Source: Caulobacter sp. (lineage in GTDB: Bacteria > Pseudomonadota > Alphaproteobacteria > Caulobacterales > Caulobacteraceae). Taken from it: 17,352 nt of DNA. Below the pieces are notes generated by a model, which had not been told where the DNA came from, did not search any database, and saw only the letters and a program-made list of their open reading frames with translations. How positions within the stretch are numbered: position 1 is the first letter of the stretch; the number at the start of each line of letters is the position of its first letter. The position numbers and the translations under genes are program-made. Below, piece by piece: positions 102 through 4,880 of the stretch. The stretch is from assembly GCA_014378155.1 (NCBI GenBank), contig JACMOF010000124.1, positions 1 through 17,352 of the forward strand, in the 5' to 3' direction.

Positions 102-431
102 TTGTTGACACTCCTTGCATAGGAGCCACCGCTTGGGAGCGTCTTGGGCTCTTGGATCGGGATTTTCCCCTAGCCGCATATGACCAGTTGCCGAAGTTTT
201 CCTAAGCTATCGGGCCCGCCGCTGGGGCGGCCGGGGGGCCGGCCGGGGGGGCGAAGGGGTGGGCTTCCATGCCGTTGGGGCGTCCTAATTAGCCTCTGCT
301 CTCTGGGAGAAAGTTGAAGGAGCTAGCCTCCATGCCCTGCGAATAGCCAGTAAACTCTAGCGTTTTCAAGGCACTAAAACTTTTCGATCTAATTGATCCT
401 CTCCCTCCAGATCACCGCCATACTGGTCCTA
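102..431. other. gene-free stretch with a G-rich tandem repeat
   Basis: I see no credible protein or known RNA here. Short frames exist (for example an ATG at 179) but they lack a ribosome site and read through a G-rich tract into Gly/Pro/Arg-rich sequence. The tract holds two copies of GGCCGGGGGG at 229-238 and 241-250, which could form a hairpin or be a slippage-prone run. From about 270 to 420 the sequence is clearly more AT-rich than the neighbouring genes, for example 341-400. This could hold a promoter or the 5' part of the structured RNA that follows: TTGATC at 393-398 and CATACT at 419-424 are promoter-like but 20 bases apart. Confidence 0.4.
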
Positions 432-841
432 CCCAAGAGCACGGGAAGGGCGCACGTACGGCGACCGAGGCGGCTCTTGGGGGTGGTCGAGCGGGAAGGC
501 TTGTCCGCCGTGTCTTCTTCGGAAGACGCCCCAGGTCGGTTCGGAGCAGGTTCACCCCCGTGGTGACGAAACTCCGGCGCTCGGGGTAGGCGGACAGGCT
601 GGCAGGTGCGGGCTGAAATCGCCCGCACGGTCCGGAAGGGTGCGCCAAGCCCTTCCGCCCGCCGGGGGCCCACTTCGGAAGCGGGTTAAGACCCCGCGCT
701 CCGATGGCTCCCGTCTGAAGGCCACGCGAAGCGCTCGTCTTCGTCGAAACGGTAAATCTACTGCAAAACCTCCGGGCGGAGCCCGGGCGCTTCGCATCCC
801 TCCCATCCCATCGCAGCCTCCGGGCGCGTGAGGGCGAAGCG
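432..841 (+). ncRNA. candidate structured non-coding RNA, about 410 nt, family not recognised
   Basis: The stretch folds into many strong nested helices: 432-440/473-481 (9 bp); 498-509/589-600 (12 bp, two G.U pairs) enclosing 510-517/522-529 with a cUUCGg loop and a second branch 529-532/583-586, 542-546/572-576, 552-556/562-566; then 606-613/621-628 (8 bp), 633-640/650-657 (8 bp), 681-685/693-697, 727-731/739-743, 771-777/781-787 and a closing 788-795/834-841. Non-Watson-Crick positions inside or next to helices are G.U on the plus strand and would be A.C on the minus strand, so a plus-strand RNA is favoured. I find no RNase P core (GAAAGTCC, ACAGAA), no tmRNA tag or tRNA-like end, and no group II domain V. 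Frames over it in several phases look like shadows. The ends are uncertain. An ORF-less omega/HEARO-type RNA or an intron relic remains possible. Confidence 0.5.
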
Positions 842-3478: not shown

Positions 3479-3491
3479 AAAGGTGGGCAAG

Positions 3492-4880
3492 ATGCGGCTG
3501 CTGTCGAAGAACGATCGCAACACCAAGAGCGGCGTCAAGCCGGTGATGCTGGCGACCGAGAACGACCGTCCTGAGTCCACGGAGACGTCCGACCGTCTGA
3601 TCGAGGCCACCCAGGCGATCGGCGTCCGCTACGAAACCATCCATGGCGGCCTCGATAGCATCAGCCGCGTGGTCGAGCACCTGCGGGCCATCGAGCCCCT
3701 GCTCTCTGAAATTCGCGGTCCGGTCGCCGAGGAGTTTGAAGCCCGTCGTAGCGAGCACGCCGAGCTGATCTCGCTGCGCGCAGCCTTCGACACCGCCGCC
3801 CGTCAACTGGCCGCCGTCCAGGCCGAGGAGCGCGAGCTCTCCGCCAAGCTGGCCGCCTCCGACGCCGGCCTGGTCGAGTCTGACGCACGACGCCAGGCCC
3901 TCGACGTGGCCCTGGAAGACGGGGCGCTCGAGATCGATCGGCTGCGCAACGGCCTGCTGCAGTCCGACCTGAAGGTCGGCGGGCTGGAAGCCGCCCTGCG
4001 AGACGCCGCCGCACGCGGCGAGCACCTGGCCCAGGACGTCGACACCCTGCGCCTGCAGACCCAGGACATCGACACCCGTCGCGGCGAGGCCGAATCGGCC
4101 CTGGCGCGCTCGAACCAGCAGACCGCCCTGCTGGTCGAGGAGTCTGGCACGCTGAAGAAGCGCCTCGAACAGGCCGGTTCCGACGTGGCCCGCCTGTCGC
4201 GCATCGAGACCGAGCTGGAAGGCCAGGTCGCCGCCGAGCGCGCGCGCCTGCTGGCCTCCGACAACGCCCTGACCACCTTCCAGTCCGACAGCGCCCGCAC
4301 GATCCGTGGCCTTGAGGCCCAGGTCGAGGCCGGCCGCACCGAGGTGTCGGCCCTGCAGACCCGCCTGGAGACCGCCACCGGTCGTGCCGACAAGCTTGAA
4401 GAGATGAACGGCCAGATCTCGGCCAAGCTGAACGAAAGCAGCGCCCAGCAGCAGGCCGTCGAGCGCCGGGCCGGCGATCTCAATGTCGCCTTGGAGCGCG
4501 CCCTGGAACGGGTTCGCAATCTGGAGGACGAGGTCGAGGACCTGCGCGGCCGTCATGCCGGCGTCGACACCGCCCGCGCCGCCGCCATCGAGCGCGCCGA
4601 CCAACTGGCCAAGACCGTCGTCGCCAACGAAAAGGCGCTCAAGCGGGCCGAGGAACGCGCGACCCAGTTGCGCACCCGCTTCGACGTCATGCAGACCGCC
4701 CAGGACGACATCCGTCGCCAGCACGACGACAAGGTCGCCGAAATGCAGACCGAGATCGAGCGCATCCGCTCGGAAGCCGCCCTGGCCGAAGGCGCTCTGG
4801 AATCGGCCCGTCGCGACCGTTCGCGCCTGCAGATGGCTCTGCTCGGCGCCACCAGCGACGACCTGGCGGCGGCGGGGTAG
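3492..4880 (+). CDS. creS: crescentin, intermediate-filament-like cell-curvature protein
   Basis: Crescentin forms a membrane-attached filament along the inner curve of Caulobacter cells. The product has 462 residues, close to the known protein. A basic head MRLLSKNDRNTKSG (residues 1-14), the type of segment crescentin uses for membrane attachment, precedes a short linker. From about residue 78 to the end there is not one proline, and there is no Cys or Trp; heptad-like Leu/Ala/Arg/Glu repeats run throughout, so nearly the whole protein is coiled coil. A short tail LLGATSDDLAAAG closes it. The ATG at 3492 is preferred over GTG at 3483 because AAAGGTGGG lies before it and MRLLSKN fits the crescentin head as I remember it. 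A generic coiled-coil protein is the alternative; the hfsK gene nearby supports the Caulobacter assignment. Confidence 0.78.
   Translation: MRLLSKNDRNTKSGVKPVMLATENDRPESTETSDRLIEATQAIGVRYETIHGGLDSISRVVEHLRAIEPLLSEIRGPVAEEFEARRSEHAELISLRAAFDTAARQLAAVQAEERELSAKLAASDAGLVESDARRQALDVALEDGALEIDRLRNGLLQSDLKVGGLEAALRDAAARGEHLAQDVDTLRLQTQDIDTRRGEAESALARSNQQTALLVEESGTLKKRLEQAGSDVARLSRIETELEGQVAAERARLLASDNALTTFQSDSARTIRGLEAQVEAGRTEVSALQTRLETATGRADKLEEMNGQISAKLNESSAQQQAVERRAGDLNVALERALERVRNLEDEVEDLRGRHAGVDTARAAAIERADQLAKTVVANEKALKRAEERATQLRTRFDVMQTAQDDIRRQHDDKVAEMQTEIERIRSEAALAEGALESARRDRSRLQMALLGATSDDLAAAG

Follow-up and report, generated by a model that had tools for sequence, protein, structure and literature searches.

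A large structured RNA dispersed in many copies through genomes of Caulobacter and related bacteria

Positions ~329–853 of the plus strand of the DNA analysed here (the window, 17,352 nucleotides of a Caulobacter sp. contig) are one of many dispersed copies of a large folded noncoding RNA (ncRNA) in Caulobacter and its relatives. In all probability, these copies form a real and apparently undescribed structured RNA family. Judging from sequence comparison, the reading that we favour, with a probability of roughly 0.55, is an undescribed multicopy family of ncRNA genes, in which each copy would be transcribed from its own promoter, the RNA would act in trans, and the copies would be kept alike by gene conversion. 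Up to dozens of copies of a large and tightly constrained RNA, unlisted in Rfam 15, thereby appear in a model genus whose transcriptomes have been deeply studied, and the family lends itself to direct tests in an organism that is easy to handle in the laboratory, low-copy species included. All features described below lie on the plus strand.

Evidence for a conserved RNA fold

In G+C-rich DNA, single-sequence folding is weak evidence. The window copy gave a z of -2.69 on the plus strand and -2.53 on the minus strand, with 1 of 100 shuffles folding equally well in each case; folding by itself is insufficient as proof, and comparison supplies it. Across 34 full-length copies, a structure of 93 pairs, 9 of which belong to two helices (17 and 18) incompatible with a hairpin at 772–786, is paired in 97.6% of 3157 cells. 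Change on both sides occurs at 33 of the 93 pairs, amounting to 216 such cells as against 63.8 in shuffles, and the covariation values were reached in none of 500 shuffles, a comparison that related sequences may win even without structure. When the structure was slid, pairing dropped to 38–51%, although a structure drawn from the same alignment tends to beat its slid versions. The strand test is free of both weaknesses: G-U combinations outnumber A-C by 341 to 19 in 3023 cells, and by 279 to 19 once helices 17 and 18, both of which compete with the hairpin, are removed, an excess that identifies the plus strand as the RNA. A covarying secondary structure on one strand, as expected of a structured ncRNA gene, was found.

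These results bear out an earlier note, made from the letters of this sequence, which had proposed a large structured RNA, assigned it to the plus strand, and named covariation across relatives as one way to check it; the five G·U pairs that it listed are all G/T in the sequence. A coding role, for which the note had seen no credible gene, is likewise not supported: copy lengths fall 14, 8, and 12 into the three classes modulo 3 (n = 34) and the frame of the long stop-free stretch differs between copies. A coding sequence was rejected because no open frame is common to the copies, although the longest stop-free stretch per copy exceeds that in shuffles (median 134.5 codons versus 112.5). The note had also recognised no known RNA family, in agreement with the absence of any match in the window at the gathering score of Rfam 15. 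Relaxed Rfam searches returned only weak sub-threshold matches, none of them to HEARO, both for the region (E up to 10) and, with E up to 1, for ten copy-bearing loci, and a scan for tRNA and tmRNA found none.

Architecture of the RNA

The predicted RNA opens with P1, in which 432–440 pairs with 473–481 (helix 1, with both-sided change in 4 of 9 pairs). The strand 483–486 closes a central multiloop with 722–725 (helix 4, paired in 100% of cells, with no both-sided change). The central domain (491–662, helices 5–11) consists of the helices 491–495/658–662, 606–613/621–628, and 633–639/651–657 together with an arm at 498–600. The earlier note had regarded this arm as the clearest domain; it does belong to the central domain, but it lies in the most variable part of the family. 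A long arm follows at 663–713 (helices 12–15), formed by 663–671/705–713 with an apical helix 681–685/693–697.

Across the family, the 5′ domain is tied to the 3′ tail by a long-range helix, the strands of which in the window are GGGAAGGG (443–450) and CCCTCCC in the RNA tail (798–804). Of 129 anchored copies, 114 reach a fixed score for this helix, compared with a mean of 39 and a maximum of 51 in 200 tail swaps; the remaining 21 of 150 copies, the window copy included, have no anchor and are uncounted in this test. In the window copy, the helix comprises 7 bp plus one bulged A, as judged by eye. The unanchored version of the test gives a smaller margin, with a mean best score of 22.1, whereas swapping the tails gives 19.0 and reversing them 20.6. 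In other subfamilies, the strands are GGAGAGGGC/GCCCTCTCC, GGAAAGGGC/GCCCTTTCC, TGGAGGGCT/AGCCCTCCA, and GACACGAG/CTCGTGTC, the last being an example of strands with unrelated sequences. Positions 448–450 are claimed both by helix 3 (448–453/461–466) and by the three innermost pairs of the long-range helix.

The 3′ domain (726–795) is enclosed by the outer stem GCGAAGCGC/GCGCTTCGC at 726–734/787–795 (helix 16). Model R1, which represents this domain and was built from 45 named Caulobacter, Brevundimonas, and related sequences retrieved through the motif string CGAAACGGTA, matches the window at 723–807 with 78.9 bits. Within the stem lies a conserved motif, CTTCGTCGAAACGGTA (739–754). Its part GTCGAAACGGTA shows no variation among 34 of 34 copies that had been found by similarity to the window, while CGAAACGGTA occurs in 12 of 13 copies of genome G164, themselves found with model R1. 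It is followed by a copy-variable loop (755–770) with 115 distinct variants among 150 copies and a G content of 4.3%, as against 36% in the element, and by the hairpin CCGGGC-GGA-GCCCGG (772–786). A pair of this hairpin covaries, being G-C in 94, A-T in 39, and mixed in none of the 133 copies conforming to the pattern; 17 of 150 do not conform. The RNAalifold helices 740–745/775–780 (helix 17) and 750–752/772–774 (helix 18) and the hairpin are mutually exclusive; helix 17 is complete, with 6 of 6 pairs, in 101 of 135 copies, and the others retain at least 4. Since the hairpin shows both-sided change and helix 17 one-sided change only, the hairpin is drawn and a switch is kept open, and the 3′ domain may be an RNA switch between two folds. 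Two other ideas were rejected by eye: homodimerisation through UUCGUCGAA, which is not conserved in G164, and a role of the loop as a guide to flanking DNA, as its alleles are common to different loci and species. The string TCCGGRCG (within 739–780 of the window) has two exclusive conserved pairings, one inside the hairpin and one with the motif that precedes it.

Upstream region and ends of the RNA

A promoter-like region at 329–431 is conserved and can be aligned in most full copies. No promoter was found in it by a standard sigma-70 scan, and no canonical -35 was recognised upstream of the RNA. Hexamer statistics of anchored copies point to a -10-like box, CATACT in the window (419–424): at least four of six matches to TATAAT occur within the 21 bases before the anchor in 91% of 115 anchored copies, whereas shuffling these bases gives 29% and sequence farther upstream 33%. 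Between two copies, L027 and L028, a likeness of 96% sets in only at the position equivalent to 430–432, and they differ upstream; this likeness, beginning at P1, suggests that the transcript start is also the boundary of the unit. At the other end, no U-tract terminator was recognised. From the conserved structure, the -10 spacing, the L027/L028 boundary, and the 3′ tail helix, the predicted ncRNA would span 432–806, or about 375 nt. Of the extent 432–841 given in the earlier note, the beginning stands (start at about 431), whereas the RNA runs to at least 804 and homology covers ~329–853. That note mentions neither the long-range helix nor the motif of the 3′ domain, and neither the -10-like box nor the existence of many copies. 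Upstream of L028 and L073, a second promoter type with an operator-like inverted repeat (AGGAAAACGCGCGTTTCCT-like) was seen by eye.

Distribution and copy number

A blastn search of the source genome with the candidate region gave 16 matches. The extent of the whole dispersed element (329–853) follows from blastn and within-genome comparisons, the longer copies starting at 321–366 and ending at 804–853. In a first draw, 18 of 41 genomes matched, all in one of ten genera. Model R1 has at least 15 matches in the source genome and is found in 43 of the 61 genomes of the source genus, with a maximum of at least 47 matches per genome; the other 18, some of them incomplete, are without a match at E 0.001, so the family is hardly essential to the genus. 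Across the order, 24 of 200 genomes in three genera matched, the second matching genus (g11) probably being Brevundimonas, and across the class 3 of 385 did, all three in the host's own bacterial family. A pattern scan of named genomes yielded at least 119 stretches, with titles, among the matches listed, of Caulobacter, Brevundimonas, and alphaproteobacterial records that belong to these genera or lie close to them. A single genome from another family of the order, G164, contains 13 diverged copies of shared architecture. Copy numbers of at least 31 to at least 34 were recorded in G002, G007, and G059, all of which lack both RT and Y1 transposase; G007, with at least 34 copies, is a two-contig genome. 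No match was obtained in plasmid and phage records (one blastn query each) or in viral contigs (one exact pattern).

With a crude gene caller, the largest neighbour gene family was found at 11 of 119 loci, and neither its distance nor its strand is constant. The same caller gave 18 convergent flanking-gene arrangements among 51 resolved of 118 loci, and orientation bias was set aside as evidence. In G060, the R1 match of each of five fetched loci (L259–L263) lies 112–271 bases from a contig end, which suggests that near-identical copies may break assembly. Two loci of G074 (L249, L250) contain apparent tandem 3′ domains; as N separates the copies, true tandem copies were dismissed in favour of a likely scaffolding or assembly artefact.

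Homogenisation, gain, and loss

Eleven orthologous pairs were chosen, four backed by both flanks and seven by one, and they are not mutually independent; in ten of them, each of the two RNAs resembles a paralog from its own genome more than it does its ortholog, and in the eleventh (L032/L074) this holds for just one of the two. In 3 of the 11 pairs the upstream part goes with the locus, and in 8 with the first copy's paralogs. Certain loci have orthologs in other species. One orthologous site is occupied by the element in 7 of 30 loci, two of the 23 element-free loci (L280, L284) being shortened by contig ends. In sister genomes without the element, the gene ends and terminators on either side are preserved and other repeats take its place; two empty-site comparisons, in which a MITE would be recognised by terminal inverted repeats and a target duplication, revealed neither a clean duplication nor a clean or fixed insertion boundary. 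Paralog likeness, together with presence and absence, indicates that copies are homogenised and also gained or lost. The intergenic space at L279 (1150–1420) and L281 (490–1470) is packed with REP-like palindromes of the CCTCCCCC...GGGGGAGG type.

Neighbourhood in the window

Downstream of the element lies ahpC (971–1534; TIGR03137, 345.8 bits for the ORF 911–1534, with the start ATG at 971 placed by eye). Between the two, a palindrome ATAG-N7-CTAT (875–889), which we take to be an OxyR-like motif, occurs once in the window, where 0.01 matches are expected, and ends 82 bases before the ahpC start. The flanks retrieved around 29 other ahpC loci, up to 1.5 kb long, contain no copy, and the proximity of element and ahpC looks incidental. 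The position upstream of ahpC given in the earlier note is correct as a location, but the link to the gene appears to be no more than positional. Elsewhere in the window, the third ORF tested (3483–4880) gave weak SMC-like matches below curated cut-offs.

Interpretation and alternative explanations

As members of an ncRNA gene family, the copies would each be transcribed from their own promoter (-10-like box at ~419–424, start at ~431), and the RNA would act in trans as a stable ribonucleoprotein or as a regulatory RNA. The fold would be a scaffold presenting the motif 739–754, a probable protein or RNA contact that perhaps switches between two pairings with 772–780, and the unpaired loop 755–770, a possible contact for a target RNA or an Hfq-like chaperone; gene conversion would hold the copies alike. 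Action in trans is probable. An independent gene is favoured because the -10-like box exceeds its two controls and the exchange boundary lies near +1. An ncRNA gene family is favoured because the same architecture recurs in 13 copies from another family of the order, because no gene family consistently adjoins the element at the 119 loci, and because G002, G007, and G059 are multicopy without RT or Y1. Against this reading, copy number and location vary, as in mobile DNA, and the canonical -35 and the U-tract terminator at the end are lacking. RNAs with large constrained folds often work in catalysis, as scaffolds, or in ribonucleoproteins; to our knowledge, homogenised ncRNA genes of ~375 nt in many copies are very unusual in bacteria. 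A further, speculative reading, which we judge unlikely, is a new kind of RNA machine, in which an end-tied scaffold of ~375 nt would carry the G-poor variable loop, between the conserved motif and the hairpin with its two exclusive pairings, as a switchable segment for target recognition or templating, with a putative protein serving it in trans; the copies would form a repertoire, and gene conversion would keep their scaffold uniform.

A non-autonomous mobile element, whose RNA moves or guides in a SINE-like manner or as a guide served in trans by a nuclease or transposase, is unlikely as well, though it carries real weight. Dispersal, the high maximum copy number, partial occupancy of one orthologous site, close copies within genomes, RNA-level selection, and the variable loop would all suit such an element, as would the two comparisons in which flanking gene ends and terminators are kept where it is absent. 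What speaks against it is that those comparisons show no clean duplication or fixed boundary, that plasmid, phage, and viral sequences gave no match in the searches described above, that loop alleles, as judged by eye, are shared between loci and species, that some loci have orthologs in other species, and that neither RT nor Y1 transposase fits as a mobilising partner. RT, as for a SINE-like element, was rejected as a partner, since it occurs in only 12 of 43 RNA-bearing genomes (3 of 18 RNA-free) and is missing from G007 despite its copies; Y1 transposase (RAYT) was rejected too, being commoner without the RNA (6 of 43 RNA-bearing versus 10 of 18 RNA-free genomes), and 26 of the 43 have neither.

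Each of three other explanations has very little chance of being right. A passive DNA repeat (MITE, REP, or BIME-like) with merely RNA-looking palindromes would accord with the intergenic, multicopy occurrence and the REP-type repeats close by, but the strand asymmetry of G-U over A-C and the long-range covariation imply selection at the RNA level. A cis-acting leader or regulator of ahpC is suggested by the element's end lying 118 bases upstream of the ahpC start on the same strand; the intervening OxyR-like site, the lack of copies at 29 further ahpC loci, and the unrelated genes beside other copies make it hardly credible. The resemblance to an omega/HEARO RNA raised in the earlier note would make the element a stand-alone OMEGA/HEARO-type guide RNA, in keeping with its size, its pseudoknot, and its many copies without a protein gene, but it did not survive scrutiny: the HEARO model of Rfam has no match, a guide-like segment was seen by eye at neither end, and IscB is unsupported as a partner (domain PF14239 in 0 of 61 genomes of the genus, a weak result as it was also detected in 0 of 14 controls).

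Relation to known RNAs and repeats

OLE, GOLLD, ROOL, and HEARO RNAs are hundreds of nucleotides long, with many covarying helices and with roles that are unknown or were found late. The element resembles them in size and in its many covarying helices, but differs in having no Rfam threshold match and at least 47 dispersed copies in one genome. With REP/BIME sequences and MITEs, it shares an intergenic, multicopy, and palindromic character; unlike them, it has RNA-level covariation, its own promoter-like region, and no positive association with Y1. Multicopy bacterial sRNA families are similar in providing several related RNAs per genome with an unpaired variable loop, whereas the present RNA is larger, has a fold tied end to end, and is homogenised within genomes.

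Within Caulobacter itself, the intergenic repeats termed CIR (Chen and Shapiro 2003) are described in PMC2229807 as ~110 bp long with a conserved GANTC; they are comparable in being Caulobacter intergenic repeats with conserved inverted-repeat folds. In contrast, the present element is ~500 bp long and GANTC-depleted, with 0.29 occurrences per ~400 nt versus 1.21 expected, none in 111 of 150 copies, and a single one in the 3′ domains of all 150; identity with CIR was rejected, as neither the GANTC hairpin nor the ~110-bp length was found. Two transcriptome studies of Caulobacter count 133 ncRNAs and 155 noncoding start sites (PMC4117421, PMC4287350), and their main texts do not use the word "repeat"; single copies may be present, unrecognised, in published Caulobacter ncRNA tables. 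No description of the family was found among the literature matches listed, subscription journals aside, and by sequence and fold the family would appear to be new.
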